NCBI GenBank assembly: GCA_028875125.1
Contig: JAPPGC010000015.1
Span: 1 to 33,776 of the forward strand
DNA length: 33,776 nucleotides
Reading direction: 5' to 3'
DNA from: Bacteroidota bacterium
GTDB lineage: Bacteria; Bacteroidota; Rhodothermia; Rhodothermales; Bin80
Positions 22,086 through 30,769 of the stretch are shown here, piece after piece (positions within the stretch are counted from its first letter, which is position 1; each line of letters begins with the position of its first letter). Below the pieces are notes generated by a model. It was not told where the DNA came from. It saw only the letters and a list, made by a program, of their open reading frames with translations, and searched no databases. Position numbers and translations under genes: made by a program.

Positions 22086-25000
22086 GTGAACCACAAGCCC
22101 TTTTCAGAATCTAAACCCGAGACGAAAAGCCGCAAAAAAAGAACGGTATTGAAATACTTTGGAGCAGCCGCAGCCTTCCTTCTTGCAGGCTGCTTCCTTG
22201 CATACCTTGGCCTCACGCACACAGAAGTAGGGCGTGACTCCCTACGCCAAGAACTCGAGCGCTCGTTTGCCGAATCCTTCAACGGGCGCCTCGCCATTGG
22301 TAATATTTCCGGCAACTTCCGCCCGATCGTTCGCTTTCAGGATGTGGAGTTTTATGACGAAAAAGATCAACTTTGGTTAAGCGCAGAGGAAATAACCAGC
22401 CACCCAAGTTGGTGGGCATTGCTCAGCCGTAAAATAGACTTGAGCACACTCAGCATTGTGCGCCCATCACTAAACCTTGAGTATCGAGTCGACAGCACTT
22501 GGAATCTGGTCACTGTACTGAAGCGGGAGCGAGCGGGAGCATGGGCATTTGAGTCTACACAAATTTCCATCACTGAAGGAACCCTAAACGTATCGTATGA
22601 AGAGCACGCGCCGCCCGCAATTGAGTCGGGATGGCTGTTCGACCTGGCCGCAGCAAATGTATCCGACGTGTCACTCCAAAGCGAGATCAGACTGTATCCC
22701 GACAGGCGACTCCTTACAATTGATTCGTTTGAGGCTTCAATAGACACTCTTCACGTGGAAGCTGCCGGAGAGTTGGTACTAGAGCACGGACTATTGCATG
22801 TAAATGCATTACAGCTGTCAAGTTCACTGAATGAGGCTGAGGTTGTAGGTGTTTACTCCGGTGAGGAACAACTCATGAACCTCTCGCTGGCCCGGAGCTT
22901 CATTACCCCTGGCTTTGCCAATGCGCTCATCCCAAATCTGATGCTTCCGGACTCGCTATCCCTGAGCGTTGATATAGAAGGTGATGGAAAACAATGGAAT
23001 CTGAAAGATCTCAGCGCGAAAACGAAGCGCTCACAAATTGCCCTCAACTCCTCAGACATCAGTTTCGACAGGGACCAGTTGTCATTCAACGCTACGATTG
23101 GACCCAGCGTGTTAGATCCCATGGATGCACTTGCCCTCCTTGGCACAGACACCTGGAGCGAGCGAGCCATACAACTTGAAGGCCAACTGAGAGGTCTGAA
23201 AACCATTGATAGTACCTGGATTGCGGGAGTGCTTGATATTGCCACCGAAGCAAGTGGTCGCGGGCAACTCGAAATATCAGCCTATCATGACACAACGTGG
23301 AGTTACACTGCACAGTTAACGGCGACAGAGGTCGACCTACAGAGCCATACAGGCCGACTAGAGCTTAACAGCACCATTAATGGCCAATTAACGATTGAAG
23401 GAAAGGGGATTCGTAAGCCATCCCTTTACACCTCTCTTACGATTGCTCCGTCCACAATCGCTAACCGTTCGATAGACAGTCTTTGGATTGCGGGCACTAT
23501 CGTCGACCACCAATTAAAGCTCAGTGGCTTTGCAATAGAGCAAGACGCTCGCCTCGAATCCGATCTTATGGCCTCTTGGGCAGACAGCGTCCTCGCCTAC
23601 GAAGCTCAAGGCAACTTGACAGCGGTTGATCTCGGAACAATCCTTGCAATCCCTGAACTGGAAACAAGCGTGAATGCGGGATGGACACTCAATGGATCAG
23701 GGACCGATTTGTCTACACTTTCCGCCGCACTAGTAATTCAAACCGACTCATCTACGGTCAACTGGAACGACGTGCAACGGTCTGCCCCCCCTACTCAATG
23801 GTCTATTTCTGTAACTGATCCAGCGGCAATGGGCCCCCGCCTGACAATCGGAGGAACCGTATTACACCTGGAAGCTTCTGGGACACTTCACGCTAACCTG
23901 CTTGAAAGTATTGGAAGCGCATGGATGGGGGCGTTTTCTGAATTGTTTGACCGATTCGCTGTCAAATTGAAAGACAATCCGCCGACGACATTTGCAAGTG
24001 GACCCTCACTGGATCAACTCAACGCGGCCCTCCAGATAGAGGGGGTCTTGACATCTGCCCAATTAGCTTCATTAGATCTGGACATAAACTGGAGGCTATT
24101 TGAACATCCAGCCACCAGTGCATTACTTCCCATGCTGCCCGAGCTATCGAGCAACATACAGGGTGACGCAATCATTCGCGTGGATTCTGACAAACTCCGT
24201 TTACGTTCTCAAATCCAGAACGAGGTACTGGTTTTCGGCAATGTTACAGCGTACCAACCTAGAGGTACGCTTACGCTTGAGGCGGACCTGAACCAGATAC
24301 TCGAATCATCATGGCAGATTGATCTCAGCCTGTCAGCCGACTCTCTTACCAATAGCGGAATTGCCCTTCTGCAACCCGATGTATTTGTTAAACAAGACGG
24401 ACTAACCGGAACAGTGGATATTAGTGCATACGGCAGAGACACAAACCAGCCTGGCCACCTGTTCTCAAATATCCAACTCCTTCCGGATCGAACTAGAATC
24501 CAAATTCAACAGGTAGTGCTCCCACTTGTGGAAACCACATGGGAAACATCCCAGCCCGCCAGTATCGACCTGTTTGCTGATGCAACTGTAATTACCCCAT
24601 TTCGTCTCGAAAATGTCGGACCTTTTCTTGATGAAGTACAAGCAATTACTGTTTACGGCAGTTTATCGAGCCAACCCACGGACACGCTTAATCTTGACCT
24701 AAAGGCCGTAGACTTGAATTATCTCTCAAGCACATTCAACCTAAGGCGACCACTAGGGGGGCAAGTCAATGCAGACTTGCGGTGGACTGGACTCTGGCAA
24801 CCTGAAATCACCGGGACCTTGGAGGTTGATACGCTTACGTTCGACAACACGGCGATTGGTCAGGTAAAGGCCTCCAGTACCTTGTTACCCGGTCAATCCG
24901 ATCTGCAGGTTTCCATGGTCGTGGATTCAATTCGATCTGCACCTGCCGGGTATGAGAGTGCTAGTAATCAACTATTGCTCACCGGCAATATGACTGTTCC

Positions 25001-26669
25001 CAGTAAAGAGAGTGCCGGAGCGCTTGATTTTTCACTCGACGTGCAGCGGCTGGATGCATTTTTTCTGAAGCTGTTTCTGAGAAGATTCGGAGATTTTGAG
25101 GGCGGCTTCAACGGAGAAATTACACTTAGCGGCCCTCCTGATGATCTGATGCTTGGCGGAAAACTGGTTTGGGAAGACGGCCACTTTGACATTCCAAAAT
25201 TCAATACCTCCTATGAAGCTGATGCGTCTGTCACGCTTCTGGACGACAAAATCCTCGTGGATGAACTGCTGGTGCAGGATGGGGACGGTGGTTCGGCCAC
25301 TCTTTCTGGAATGCTTGATCTCAATGGCTTCAGATTTCTTTCCTTCGATGCATTTGCGGAGGTTGATGCACTACAGATATTAAATGTTGTCAACTTTACG
25401 CGCGATCTATCCTTCTATGGTGACATTCGCGTATCCGGTGATGCCACATTAACCGGACCTGTTCACACTTCCTTTCTTCGTTCGGACAACCTAGTCATAA
25501 CACCACAAAGCGAGATATACATTCCGGTTCGTGAATCCGATTCTGTCCACGACCCGGGATTCATCGTCTATATAGATCCTGAACGGCCTGTTGAGGATCA
25601 GTTGGCCTCTTTCCAGCAGCGTGAAAATATTTTGGCAAGGCGCCCCGAAGGTGAGCGGGAGTTTCGGGATGGACTGGATATGGATCTCAATATCGTGGGG
25701 CCTCCTGGATCAACAATTCGCCTGGTAATTGATCCATTGCTGGGTGATGTGATCAATGGCGTCGGAAGTGCCCGCGTTCAGATCCAGCTAACGGGCGGAG
25801 ATGTCGCAACGTTCGGCTCATTTGAATTATCCTCCGGGGACTACCTTTTCACGGCAGGTGAGGTATTCGTACGGCGTTTCCTGATTGACTCCGGCACGAT
25901 CACCTGGACTGGCGAACCACTCAATCCTGCGCTTGATATTGATGCGGCCTACCGCACCCGCGCTTCGCGTAGCGGCCTACCTGATGATGTGGGTGGATCA
26001 ATAAGAACAAGTTTGCCGCTGTTCGTCAATCTGAACGTTGCTGGCACACTGAATGCGGTCTTGATTGATTTGTCGCTGGAGATTGATCAACGACAGGAAG
26101 CCATCAGCGATACACCACTGCTGGATTCCTATTTGAATCGACCAGATCTTGCCGCAGAACACGCTACCAGCGTATTGCTCACGAACTCATTTCTGCTTTC
26201 AGCAGACGGAACACGAAGCGGGATTTTGACCAGTTCTGCGGTCAATAGCGTATCCAGCCTCGTAGCTAGCCAACTCAACCGTTACTTGAATCAGGTTATT
26301 CCGAAAGCGGATTTCACGCTTGGGGTTCAGAGCGACGAAGACATACAGGACCTGGACGTTGCCGCGGGAATTGCGGTAAGGCTTTTGAATGAGCGCCTGA
26401 TTATCCGCGGTGAGGGCGTGTACCGCGGACTAAATGCTGAGGAAACAGTTTCAAAGGGCCTTGAAGGTGAGTTCGTTGTAGAGATCCGATTAACGCCTTC
26501 GGTAGCCGTGGAAGTTTTTTACCGACGTGAAGGAGATGTCCTCAGCGAAACTCTCATCACGAACGAAACCGGACTTGGTCTAAACTATCGCACAGAATTT
26601 ACCTCTTGGCGGAAGTTGTTTGGGCATCAAGTTTCCGAGCCAAAAGAACTTGCAGACAGAAACCAATAG
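22086..26669 (+). CDS. tamB: TamB/YtfN-type translocation and assembly module protein
   Basis: This 1527-residue protein has a basic N-terminus and one transmembrane anchor (YFGAAAAFLLAGCFLAYLGL, about residues 26-45). A very long region of short beta strands follows, as in the AsmA/TamB bridge proteins that span the periplasm and move lipids or help insert outer-membrane proteins. The C-terminal 450 residues are the conserved TamB (DUF490) domain: LDMDLNIVGPPGSTIRL, GGDVATFGSFELSSGDYLF, a segment ending RRFLIDSGTITWTGEP with LNPALDIDAAYRTR, LTNSFLLSADG and YRREGDVLSETLITNETGLG. The start is GTG (22086), 55 nt behind the esterase. No tamA/bamA-like gene is in the window. The domain call is firm; the mechanism is inferred from the family. 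Confidence 0.9.
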   Translation: MNHKPFSESKPETKSRKKRTVLKYFGAAAAFLLAGCFLAYLGLTHTEVGRDSLRQELERSFAESFNGRLAIGNISGNFRPIVRFQDVEFYDEKDQLWLSAEEITSHPSWWALLSRKIDLSTLSIVRPSLNLEYRVDSTWNLVTVLKRERAGAWAFESTQISITEGTLNVSYEEHAPPAIESGWLFDLAAANVSDVSLQSEIRLYPDRRLLTIDSFEASIDTLHVEAAGELVLEHGLLHVNALQLSSSLNEAEVVGVYSGEEQLMNLSLARSFITPGFANALIPNLMLPDSLSLSVDIEGDGKQWNLKDLSAKTKRSQIALNSSDISFDRDQLSFNATIGPSVLDPMDALALLGTDTWSERAIQLEGQLRGLKTIDSTWIAGVLDIATEASGRGQLEISAYHDTTWSYTAQLTATEVDLQSHTGRLELNSTINGQLTIEGKGIRKPSLYTSLTIAPSTIANRSIDSLWIAGTIVDHQLKLSGFAIEQDARLESDLMASWADSVLAYEAQGNLTAVDLGTILAIPELETSVNAGWTLNGSGTDLSTLSAALVIQTDSSTVNWNDVQRSAPPTQWSISVTDPAAMGPRLTIGGTVLHLEASGTLHANLLESIGSAWMGAFSELFDRFAVKLKDNPPTTFASGPSLDQLNAALQIEGVLTSAQLASLDLDINWRLFEHPATSALLPMLPELSSNIQGDAIIRVDSDKLRLRSQIQNEVLVFGNVTAYQPRGTLTLEADLNQILESSWQIDLSLSADSLTNSGIALLQPDVFVKQDGLTGTVDISAYGRDTNQPGHLFSNIQLLPDRTRIQIQQVVLPLVETTWETSQPASIDLFADATVITPFRLENVGPFLDEVQAITVYGSLSSQPTDTLNLDLKAVDLNYLSSTFNLRRPLGGQVNADLRWTGLWQPEITGTLEVDTLTFDNTAIGQVKASSTLLPGQSDLQVSMVVDSIRSAPAGYESASNQLLLTGNMTVPSKESAGALDFSLDVQRLDAFFLKLFLRRFGDFEGGFNGEITLSGPPDDLMLGGKLVWEDGHFDIPKFNTSYEADASVTLLDDKILVDELLVQDGDGGSATLSGMLDLNGFRFLSFDAFAEVDALQILNVVNFTRDLSFYGDIRVSGDATLTGPVHTSFLRSDNLVITPQSEIYIPVRESDSVHDPGFIVYIDPERPVEDQLASFQQRENILARRPEGEREFRDGLDMDLNIVGPPGSTIRLVIDPLLGDVINGVGSARVQIQLTGGDVATFGSFELSSGDYLFTAGEVFVRRFLIDSGTITWTGEPLNPALDIDAAYRTRASRSGLPDDVGGSIRTSLPLFVNLNVAGTLNAVLIDLSLEIDQRQEAISDTPLLDSYLNRPDLAAEHATSVLLTNSFLLSADGTRSGILTSSAVNSVSSLVASQLNRYLNQVIPKADFTLGVQSDEDIQDLDVAAGIAVRLLNERLIIRGEGVYRGLNAEETVSKGLEGEFVVEIRLTPSVAVEVFYRREGDVLSETLITNETGLGLNYRTEFTSWRKLFGHQVSEPKELADRNQ

Positions 26670-27191: not shown

Positions 27192-27222
27192 TTGACATGG
27201 AATACCTAGTTATTCGTATATT
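27192..27222 (+). promoter_or_regulatory. Candidate promoter of the cobalamin riboswitch unit
   Basis: TTGACA (27192-27197) is a perfect -35 hexamer and TATATT (27217-27222) a plausible -10 with a 19-bp spacer (18 bp if GTATAT is used). Transcription would begin right at the 5' side of the riboswitch, which supports the call. Confidence 0.5.
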
Positions 27223-27224
27223 GG

Positions 27225-27470
27225 GGCCATTGCGCCTTCGGTCTGGGCATTTCGCCTGGGTAAAGGGGAATCCGGTGCCTTCTTGCTGCAAGAACAACCC
27301 GGAACTGTACCCGCAACTGTAGGCCGTACGGAAGTTGAAATACTTCCAGGAAAGAGGAGAGAGGGAGTTCATAGTCACTGTCCGCGTTGATGGGAAGGCT
27401 ATGAACACCGCCTCTTCGGGCACACTGAGTGTGCGTACGGCGAGTCAGGAAACCTGCCGACGGGAAAACG
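27225..27470 (+). promoter_or_regulatory. Cobalamin (adenosylcobalamin) riboswitch
   Basis: The conserved cobalamin aptamer pieces occur in order. GGGTAAAGGGGAATCCGGTG ends at 27276, ACCCGCAACTGTA lies at 27309-27321 (the CCCGCxACTGT core), and the B12 box AGTCAGGAAACCTGCC lies at 27443-27458. The ends TCGTC (27238-27242) and GACGG (27459-27463) can close the outer stem. The B12 box lies 113 nt before the BtuB-like start; that spacer contains AACGC/GCGTT and AGCTG/CAGCT repeats that could form the expression platform. Binding of cobalamin should shut down expression of the receptor and the gene behind it. The outer limits are approximate to about 15 nt. Confidence 0.92.
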
Positions 27471-27571
27471 CGCCACCAACCTCCGGGCGTTGAGGTCTGT
27501 TGTCGGCATCAGCTGGGATGATCAGCTAGACGCGGCGATCTGGATCTCTCGAATGGGGTTCAGGCACTTAC

Positions 27572-29398
27572 ATGCTGCGTATCCTACTTCTTTGTGCGCT
27601 TCAGCCGCTTCCGGTCATTGCCGAGCAAGTAGCCGATGGCACTGTTACGCTTCCTCCGATTACGGTTACCGCTTCGCGGATACCCGTTTCCGTTGTGCAC
27701 GCCCCCGTACGGACGCAGGTGCTTGATCGTAGTGCCATCATTGAATCTGGGTCGCTGACCGTGGCTGATCTACTGCGCCAACGTTCTGCGTTGTATGTTC
27801 GACATTACGTAGGAGGGCTGTCAACATTATCTCAGCGCGGCGGATCGGCCTCGCAAACTCTTGTTCTGCTGGATGGCCATCGAATCGCAAGTCCACAAGC
27901 TGGACAACTGGACCTGTCCCTCTTACCAACGATACTGTTGAATGCAGTGGAGGTCACCTCCGGCGCGGGTGGAGTTCTTTACGGCACCGACGCCATTGGC
28001 GGTGTGGTAAACCTCCAAACGGCATCCTCCGAAAACCTCTTCACAGTACATGCTGAGACAGGAGCATGGGGAAAACGCAACGGTGCATTCTACGCCACCA
28101 TGCGTCGTGGACGCTTGGCAGGTACAGTGGCAGGCGAGATAGATCGCTATAAGGGTGATTATCCCTACTTGAATCGTGCACTTTTCCCCCCGGAAGAATC
28201 GCCTCGTGAAGGAGGCGACCAACAAAAGCATTCGATCTTTGGGTCAATGACATTGACGCGACCCAATGACGAATGGCGGGTAAGTGCGTGGTACAATAAC
28301 GCGGAACGTGGGCTGCCGAGCATTAATTCCTCGCTGCTTTCCGGTGAGCGCCAGTGGGATGAGCACCTGCGTGTCTGGACGCAGGTCAGGCGGAAATGGC
28401 CATGGGGTTCATTGAAGGCCGGCGGCCTCGCACAAGTGGGGGCGCTCCGTTACATGAATTCACGTACGGACATTGATAACACTGGTCGAACGACTTTATC
28501 ATCTGTCCATGCCAATATTGATCTAAATCCAATCCGTGCCTGGCAACTGGGTGGAGGAGTAGAAGCAGGATTCGGTCAAGCAGACCACCCAAGCCTGCAG
28601 CAGGGCAATATGGAGCGTCGTTACGCCGCGTATGCTCACGCGATAGGGAGCTGGGGGCCAATGTCCATTTACCCAGCCCTGCGTCTGGATCATTATGCCC
28701 GACCAAGAAGAGTTAGTCCCGTCATTTCCAGCCTGGGAATAAATGTCCGTCTGAAGCCCAACCTCCATCTCAAGGGCTCGGCAGCCTCGGCATTTCGGAT
28801 GCCCACCTTTAATGACCGGTTCTGGTTACCGGGAGGGAATCCAGATCTGAACCCTGAACGTGGTGAGTCTTTCGATGCCGGTCTGATATGGCTGTATGGT
28901 GGGCTACAGATTGAAATGACCACGTTCATGAACCGACTACGCGATCAAATTGTGTGGCAGCCCACATCGGCCGGGTACTGGGCGCCGATGAACGTCAGCC
29001 GTGTGACGAATTACGGACTAGAAGCCTCTGTTGATTTTCAACGGGCTCTGACTAGACGGATGGAAACTCGAGCGGGTTTAGTGTGGACGCGTGTGGCACA
29101 GAAGGGCGATTCGTTTTTGCGGCTTATCCCGCGTAATGCGATCAAAGGCCACTTGAACCTCCGCTGGAGATTCTTGGCAGCCAGTATTGCCACAAGCTAC
29201 ACCGGCGCCCTTGCAATTACGTCGGTTACCGAATCGGATCCCTTTTTTCTAGTACATGGCCAACTGAAGACGCATGCAGGCCCTGTTTCCTTAGGTGTCC
29301 ACGGGGAAAACCTTCTGGATGCCCGCTACGAATATCTGCCGGCCAATCCAATGCCTCCGAGGCAGGTTCGGCTGATTCTGACCCTCACATTTCACTAA
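27572..29398 (+). CDS. btuB: BtuB-like TonB-dependent outer-membrane corrinoid receptor
   Basis: This 608-residue protein has a signal peptide (MLRILLLCALQPLPVIA), a TonB box within TLPPITVTASRIPV (about residues 27-40), a plug domain (SLTVADLLRQRSALYVRHYV, then LVLLDGHRIAS and GAGGVLYGTDAIGGVVNL) and a beta-barrel ending in LILTLTFH. The size is close to BtuB (about 600 residues), smaller than SusC-type receptors. The plug motif GxxxxLYGxxAIGGVVNI and the B12 riboswitch in front make cobalamin or another corrinoid the probable ligand. It would import the ligand across the outer membrane using TonB energy. It is the first gene of a two-gene unit, with the BtuG-like propeller starting 12 nt after its stop. 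No btuFCD genes are visible, so the inner-membrane steps lie elsewhere. Confidence 0.9.
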   Translation: MLRILLLCALQPLPVIAEQVADGTVTLPPITVTASRIPVSVVHAPVRTQVLDRSAIIESGSLTVADLLRQRSALYVRHYVGGLSTLSQRGGSASQTLVLLDGHRIASPQAGQLDLSLLPTILLNAVEVTSGAGGVLYGTDAIGGVVNLQTASSENLFTVHAETGAWGKRNGAFYATMRRGRLAGTVAGEIDRYKGDYPYLNRALFPPEESPREGGDQQKHSIFGSMTLTRPNDEWRVSAWYNNAERGLPSINSSLLSGERQWDEHLRVWTQVRRKWPWGSLKAGGLAQVGALRYMNSRTDIDNTGRTTLSSVHANIDLNPIRAWQLGGGVEAGFGQADHPSLQQGNMERRYAAYAHAIGSWGPMSIYPALRLDHYARPRRVSPVISSLGINVRLKPNLHLKGSAASAFRMPTFNDRFWLPGGNPDLNPERGESFDAGLIWLYGGLQIEMTTFMNRLRDQIVWQPTSAGYWAPMNVSRVTNYGLEASVDFQRALTRRMETRAGLVWTRVAQKGDSFLRLIPRNAIKGHLNLRWRFLAASIATSYTGALAITSVTESDPFFLVHGQLKTHAGPVSLGVHGENLLDARYEYLPANPMPPRQVRLILTLTFH

Positions 29399-29410
29399 AT
29401 CTTTTCGAAA

Positions 29411-30769
29411 ATGACCAAGTTTTTTCGGTTTTGCACCTTGATGTTGTTGATCTCCGCTCCTGTTTCCGCGCAGGAAATTCTTGGCGTGTACATCGCTAAC
29501 CAAGGAAATTTTGCTGACGTTAATGCCTCAATTACATGGTACGATTTATCAACCAGACAGGCAGAACAGGTTCTATCTGACTTTGGCACTATTGCCCAAA
29601 GCATCACGCTACACGGAAATTATGGCTATATCGCATCAAATACATCAAACAATGTAGATATCTTGGACTTATCCACCAACATGCGTGTCGGCCAGATTCG
29701 TGAGGTTGCCAGTCCGCGATATATCAGCGTGGTTGATCAGAACAAAGCCTACGTATCTGAGCAGTTGGATCCGGGCAAGGTCAAGGTACTGGATCTGCAG
29801 TCGCGGACTGTGTCCGATTCTGTAGACGTAGGCTCCAGACCTGAGGACATTGCCGTGGTGGGCAACCGCGCATTTGTGGCCAACTCAGGGTGGAGTCACG
29901 ACTCTACGCTTACGGTAATTGACACCCAGACCGATACGGTAATTGAAACGATTGAATTGGGATGTGATGGTCCCCGGCACCTTGAAGTCGACCAGCAGGG
30001 TGATCTCTGGGCTTTTTGCACGGGCAAAACGGTCTGGAACGCGGACTTCACCGTGATAATCGAACAAACCAATGGCGTGGCTGTCGTACTGAATCCGCGG
30101 ACCGGCGACATCCTGAATCGCATTGAATTCAGTCATCAAGTCGGCTCAAGTGGGCCCGGCCAAGATTCCCATTACAGCCCTGAAAGCGATGAAATATTTC
30201 TGATTCGAAGCGACACCTCAATGGTATTGGTTTTTGATGCCACCACAAACACGTACAAGGAGTCTATCCCCTTCTCAGGGACTGAGAGAGTAGGTGGTCT
30301 GGCTTACGATGCGTCCGAGCGTCTGTTTTACATTGGCCGATTTGACAGGGACTTCAGCACAGCCTTTACACAACCAGGGTTTGTTCAGATTGCAAATCGG
30401 GATGATCTGTCAGAGGTTGGGCGATTCGCCGTGGGAATTGCTCCAGCACATTTGGCCTTGCATAAGTCTCCCCAGGCCACAGCCGTGGATGAAGTTGGCA
30501 TGCCTCAAGTCGGATGGTTTTCTCCAGCGTATCCGAACCCGTTCAATGATGCCACCACACTCACTTTTTCGCTTGAACGAACTCAACAGGTATCTCTGGC
30601 GATCTTTGATGCATTGGGTCGTGAGGTTGCCCGTCCCGTGTCCGGTTTGTTGTCGGCCGGAGAGCATCGCGTTGTATGGGAAGCGAACCATTTGCCAGCG
30701 GGGACTTATTTCAGCCGGCTGACGATTGACGGTCAGACAGCCACCGGAACGCTAGTGCGCACGCGCTAA
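29411..30769 (+). CDS. BtuG-like surface beta-propeller with T9SS sorting domain
   Basis: This 452-residue protein has a Sec signal (FFRFCTLMLLISAPVSAQ, cleaved near residue 20, no lipobox) and a YncE-like seven-bladed propeller (about residues 22-360). Blade repeats include YIASNTSNNVDILDLSTN, GKVKVLDLQSRTVSDSVDVG and STLTVIDTQTDTVIETIELG. The opening GVYIANQGNF...NASITWYDLSTRQA and SRPEDIAVVGNRAFVANSG resemble the BtuG family of Bacteroides, which binds B12 on the surface and caps BtuB. A type A T9SS C-terminal domain follows (PAYPNPFNDATTLTF, LGREVARPVSGLLSAGEHRV, LPAGTYFSRLTIDGQTATGT), so it should be secreted and fixed to the surface by T9SS instead of by lipid. The 12-nt distance to btuB and the shared riboswitch support a joint function. 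Ligand binding itself is inferred. Confidence 0.82.
   Translation: MTKFFRFCTLMLLISAPVSAQEILGVYIANQGNFADVNASITWYDLSTRQAEQVLSDFGTIAQSITLHGNYGYIASNTSNNVDILDLSTNMRVGQIREVASPRYISVVDQNKAYVSEQLDPGKVKVLDLQSRTVSDSVDVGSRPEDIAVVGNRAFVANSGWSHDSTLTVIDTQTDTVIETIELGCDGPRHLEVDQQGDLWAFCTGKTVWNADFTVIIEQTNGVAVVLNPRTGDILNRIEFSHQVGSSGPGQDSHYSPESDEIFLIRSDTSMVLVFDATTNTYKESIPFSGTERVGGLAYDASERLFYIGRFDRDFSTAFTQPGFVQIANRDDLSEVGRFAVGIAPAHLALHKSPQATAVDEVGMPQVGWFSPAYPNPFNDATTLTFSLERTQQVSLAIFDALGREVARPVSGLLSAGEHRVVWEANHLPAGTYFSRLTIDGQTATGTLVRTR

Follow-up and report, generated by a model that had tools for sequence, protein, structure and literature searches.

The lids of TonB-dependent corrinoid transporters are known from Bacteroides thetaiotaomicron. 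BtuG proteins have been described as lipoproteins, with a lipobox cysteine in nearly all homologues (PMC6143338), and lid-capped TonB transporters have been published as lipoprotein-capped, with the N-terminal lipid linker proposed as the hinge. In BtuB2G2, this linker makes bonds with EL2 and EL11 of the receptor. The Asn54–Thr64 loop of BtuG2 holds cobalamin. EL8 of BtuB3 contributes Tyr538, replaced by Trp in BtuB1 and by Phe in BtuB2, which contacts B12 and has been proposed to expel it from BtuG (PMC10404256).

Here we describe a BtuG-type lid with T9SS export signals, encoded in a 33,776-nucleotide stretch of a Rhodothermales genome (the window; contig JAPPGC010000015.1, assembly GCA_028875125.1). 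Known type A T9SS cargo consists mostly of enzymes and adhesins. We found no paper naming the lid of a TonB-dependent transporter among this cargo, and no description of a T9SS-exported BtuG in the full-text literature outside subscription papers and preprints. The DUF5074 plus Por_Secre_tail architecture is probably already visible in sequence databases, so the novelty lies in its interpretation and in the repeated exchange of anchors reported below.

Organization of the btuB–lid locus

The riboswitch, btuB and the lid gene follow one another on the forward strand (Table 1), with 12 nt between the btuB stop codon and the lid gene. A riboswitch search returned a single RF00174 match in the genome, the one upstream of this pair. 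A first-pass annotation had recognized the cobalamin riboswitch at the right coordinates, with the aptamer itself beginning at 27222 rather than 27192. Folding of the riboswitch and leader revealed no unusual extra stability (z = −1.33). Upstream of the operon, a TamB-like protein (PF04357) is encoded at 22086–26669 on the same strand; the gap of ~550 nt between this gene and the riboswitch holds no long forward-strand open reading frame.

The receptor, rightly called BtuB-like in the first pass, combines a plug and a barrel, and its best PDB matches are BtuB2, BtuB3 and BtuB1 of B. thetaiotaomicron (E = 5e-32), followed by Escherichia coli BtuB. Its score against the curated equivalog model TIGR01779 counts against this assignment, at 119.5 bits versus a cut-off of 599.7 bits. 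Of 84 BtuB sequences aligned, 76 have an aromatic residue at the EL8 position. A comparison of loop lengths found no shortening of EL2 or EL11 with the T9SS-form lid and no co-variation.

Table 1 Features of the btuB–lid locus (window coordinates)
Feature	Position	Strand	Basis
Cobalamin riboswitch aptamer (Rfam RF00174)	27222–27475	+	71.1 bits versus gathering score 31.5
BtuB-type TonB-dependent corrinoid receptor, 608 aa	27572–29398	+	Pfam Plug and TonB barrel
BtuB Trp470, EL8 aromatic position	28979–28981	+	Aligned with Tyr538 of BtuB3
Lid gene, 452 aa (DUF5074 and type A T9SS sorting domain)	29411–30769	+	
Lid Sec signal peptide, predicted cleavage VSA/Q, without lipobox	29411–29470	+	Sequence reading
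BtuG-type beta-propeller (lid)	29471–30466	+	Sequence profile, AF2 model, Foldseek
Ligand-holding loop NQGNFADVNAS	29498–29530	+	Aligned with BtuG2 Asn54–Thr64
Disordered linker from propeller to CTD; presumed tether after PorU cleavage	30473–30514	+	pLDDT <50, mature residues 335–348
Type A T9SS C-terminal sorting domain (CTD)	30515–30766	+	PF18962 and TIGR04183 above cut-off

The lid is a BtuG homologue

The first-pass annotation had described the propeller as YncE/BtuG-like; both a profile comparison and Foldseek place it with BtuG and not with a non-corrinoid family. The closest solved relatives of the lid sequence are the Bacteroides BtuG lids (E = 3.5e-18). A profile built from 35 relatives is collinear with BtuG1, BtuG2 and BtuG3 over positions 2–324 (E = 2e-30), a whole-length alignment obtained for BtuG chains only, other propellers giving partial matches. 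In the AlphaFold2 model of the mature lid (mean pLDDT 90.6), a disordered linker joins the propeller to a C-terminal domain that is all beta. When this model was searched against the PDB with Foldseek, BtuG accounted for 16 of the 17 top matches, most with bound cobalamin; BtuG3 and BtuG2 ranked best, and TM scores normalized on BtuG length were 0.74–0.86 for chains lacking the additional BtuH domain. Propeller identity to BtuG2 and BtuG3, at ~20%, counts against the assignment.

The residues of the ligand-holding loop are among the most conserved of the family. The SPRY motif and the Trp194 equivalent of the BtuG2 pocket also align with the lid, the latter position being Trp in the window's lid and usually Phe in relatives. 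Sequence alignment is weak over the C-terminal half of the pocket and does not resolve the contacts from blades 5–7. The lid is a BtuG homologue, as a variant without a lipobox rather than a standard BtuG lipoprotein; by analogy with the Bacteroides lids, its propeller is predicted to bind corrinoids and to cap BtuB.

Export signals and the T9SS of the host

The lid starts with the Sec signal MTKFFRFCTLMLLISAPVSA, followed by Q at the cleavage site, and has no lipobox. Its residues 374–449 match PF18962 at 34.8 bits (cut-off 27) and TIGR04183 at 37.1 bits (cut-off 23); because both scores exceed the curated cut-offs, we classify the CTD as type A. The propeller 12 nt beyond btuB, with its plain Sec signal and type A CTD, is therefore as first annotated. 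The genome (98% complete) matches this CTD at 52 places, that of the lid included. The 51 others, together with the T9SS core component SprA and the sortase PorU, establish that a T9SS is present. The CTD is predicted to be cleaved and the lid covalently attached to lipopolysaccharide; 'T9SS-attached', as first annotated, is an inference, given that CTD cleavage by PorU sets some T9SS cargo free (PMC10202324).

The same genome encodes one BtuG and has three places with B12-binding domains, and a search for CobS gave no match. This gene content fits a corrinoid scavenger dependent on the operon, the absence of CobS being by itself no proof of auxotrophy. As this is the sole BtuG system found in the genome, B12 acquisition would depend on the T9SS. 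Judging by the bin names of the nearest relatives, the host is probably a sponge-associated Rhodothermales bacterium.

Conservation of the operon

The propeller occurs in 44 of 59 related genomes. Contigs of relatives were also searched with a profile from an alignment of 11 closer propeller sequences. Those relatives that carry names are MAGs of the Rhodothermales; Roseithermus sacchariphilus MEBiC09517, a genome-sequenced strain, likewise encodes a T9SS-form lid. At the level of the order, 40 loci were sampled. The order riboswitch, btuB, propeller is kept in all 36 loci with enough flanking sequence, so that the pairing in the window extends to its relatives; the remaining 4 loci are cut off by a contig end, either inside btuB or ahead of it. 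A phylum-wide sample comprised 40 loci, chosen partly by reading-frame length, and proportions among them, those of the two anchor forms below included, are not to be read as frequencies. The riboswitch is found in 39 of these loci. Most of the phylum loci have a BtuB-like gene, which adjoins every T9SS-form propeller, and in a few the riboswitch directly precedes a lipobox propeller.

Several loci have unusual layouts. In L148 (628–3107, reverse strand), a riboswitch precedes two propellers, the first BtuG-like with a lipobox and the next with a T9SS CTD, placing both anchor types side by side under one riboswitch; BtuB was not found within that stretch. Two cobalamin riboswitches ~0.9 kb apart lie upstream of btuB–btuG in L152 (4957–6076) and L154 (4493–5626), both on the reverse strand. 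Downstream of the T9SS-form btuG in L139, an opposite-strand pair of Acido-Lenti-1 RNA matches occupies 742–966.

Two anchor forms of one lid

Among 90 homologues, 29 have a CTD, none of them with a lipobox at the cleavage site, and 59 have a lipobox and no CTD. The other two, L047 and L052, were rejected as exceptions: a frameshift in L047 has left the CTD in a different frame, and L052 ends at a contig edge. In L047 (1–3254, reverse strand), btuB is also split into two overlapping frames, indicating assembly errors or decaying genes. A third candidate exception, L172, does have a lipobox, YLGC, which the pattern missed only because it lay outside the stretch searched. Propellers of the lipobox form begin ~13 residues past the cysteine and end 0–9 residues before the stop codon. 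In the T9SS form, the propeller begins ~2 residues past a signal peptidase I site and is followed by 23–27 residues leading to the PNPF motif of the CTD. The proposal that the T9SS replaces the lipid anchor thus holds more broadly than first claimed, with the two anchors alternating across the phylum.

Every intact homologue without a CTD has a lipobox, which indicates that some surface anchor is retained. Mutual exclusion of the two signals is expected of alternative export routes; the notable point is that homologous lids of a single type, in the same operon, rely on one or the other. Presence of the T9SS was rejected as the cause of anchor choice, since all 59 relatives have SprA, those of the lipobox type as well as those of the CTD type.

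We reconstructed a maximum-likelihood tree of the propeller, leaving out the CTD. The tree requires five anchor changes, at least three of them forced by strongly supported branches. Constraining all T9SS-form sequences to group together lowered the log-likelihood by 171 (AU test, P = 1e-8), rejecting a single origin. Several gains or losses of the T9SS form are therefore required, and relatives across the phylum appear, from their sequences, to have changed the lid anchor several times independently. The lipobox form is seen more often and is that of Bacteroides, which suggests that it is ancestral.

Proposed mechanism and alternatives

The best explanation for the computed operon, homology, fold, pocket loop, EL8 residue, anchor signals and repeated anchor exchange is a BtuB–BtuG pedal bin whose lid is delivered by the T9SS and held by its C terminus, the locus being the organism's riboswitch-controlled corrinoid uptake operon. 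We assign this reading as a whole a probability of about 0.8. Under scarce corrinoid, the riboswitch would permit expression of BtuB and the BtuG lid. BtuG would leave the cytoplasm by Sec export, be cleaved by signal peptidase I and fold in the periplasm, and its CTD would take it through the T9SS translocon across the outer membrane. PorU would then trim BtuG and join its C terminus to surface lipopolysaccharide. There, BtuG would cap BtuB and take corrinoid into its central pocket, from which EL8 of BtuB would displace the ligand for handover to the receptor, as in the Bacteroides pedal-bin model.

The propeller might instead be released after CTD removal and act as a diffusible scavenger that returns corrinoid to BtuB in the manner of a haemophore. 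A significant subset of T9SS substrates is indeed freely released after PorU cleavage (PMC10202324). Several observations weigh against release here: all intact homologues lacking the CTD have a lipobox and are hence predicted to be tethered, the lid shares a one-to-one operon with BtuB, whose conservation of the EL8 aromatic likewise suits a docked lid, and PorU is encoded in the genome. We regard release as unlikely. Less probable still is a surface protein of the YncE/YVTN family that has another function and happens to lie in the operon. Matches to YVTN repeats are unspecific, and the archaeal S-layer propeller 1l0q reached the highest summed profile score; this score came from four repeat stretches, none longer than 118 residues, whereas collinearity over the whole profile was confined to BtuG chains. 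The structural matches are to BtuG with bound cobalamin, the ligand loop is conserved, and linkage to the riboswitch and btuB is near universal, all of which argue against an unrelated function.

For the tethered pedal bin, the hinge is the point at which the Bacteroides model must change. The N-terminal linker is essentially absent from the window's lid, so the hinge lies elsewhere or is replaced by the C-terminal linker, and the motion of the lid cannot be identical to that proposed for BtuB2G2. Both termini of a propeller usually lie in one blade, which would make a swap from an N- to a C-terminal anchor feasible. We consider it fairly probable that lids of TonB transporters are modular, BtuG having repeatedly exchanged its N-terminal lipid for a C-terminal T9SS/lipopolysaccharide attachment with no change visible in BtuB. 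If so, the N-terminal-linker hinge is not general, and the lid must open with its tether on the other terminus. The repeated natural swap would separate lid function from the lipoprotein route and put the hinge model to an evolutionary test, and vitamin uptake would join the likely tasks of the T9SS in environmental Bacteroidota.

Comparison with known systems

The locus resembles BtuB1G1, BtuB2G2 and BtuB3G3 of B. thetaiotaomicron in its cobalamin riboswitch and adjacent btuB and btuG genes (PMC6143338, PMC10404256), and shares with them the propeller lid fold, the Asn54–Thr64 loop and the EL8 aromatic of BtuB. Bacteroides BtuG is a surface lipoprotein with lipid on its N-terminal cysteine and a ~13-residue linker bound to EL2 and EL11 of BtuB; the window's lid, in contrast, has no lipobox and almost no N-terminal linker, and carries a C-terminal linker and T9SS sorting domain instead. 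In its Sec signal and type A CTD, with SprA and PorU in the genome, it is like type A T9SS cargo (PF18962, TIGR04183) such as the gingipains. Close counterparts are also the lipobox BtuG proteins of other Rhodothermales (for example, L053–L068 and L070–L076), which have the same operon, propeller family and BtuB EL8 motif, but differ in having an N-terminal lipid anchor, a ~13-residue tether and no CTD.
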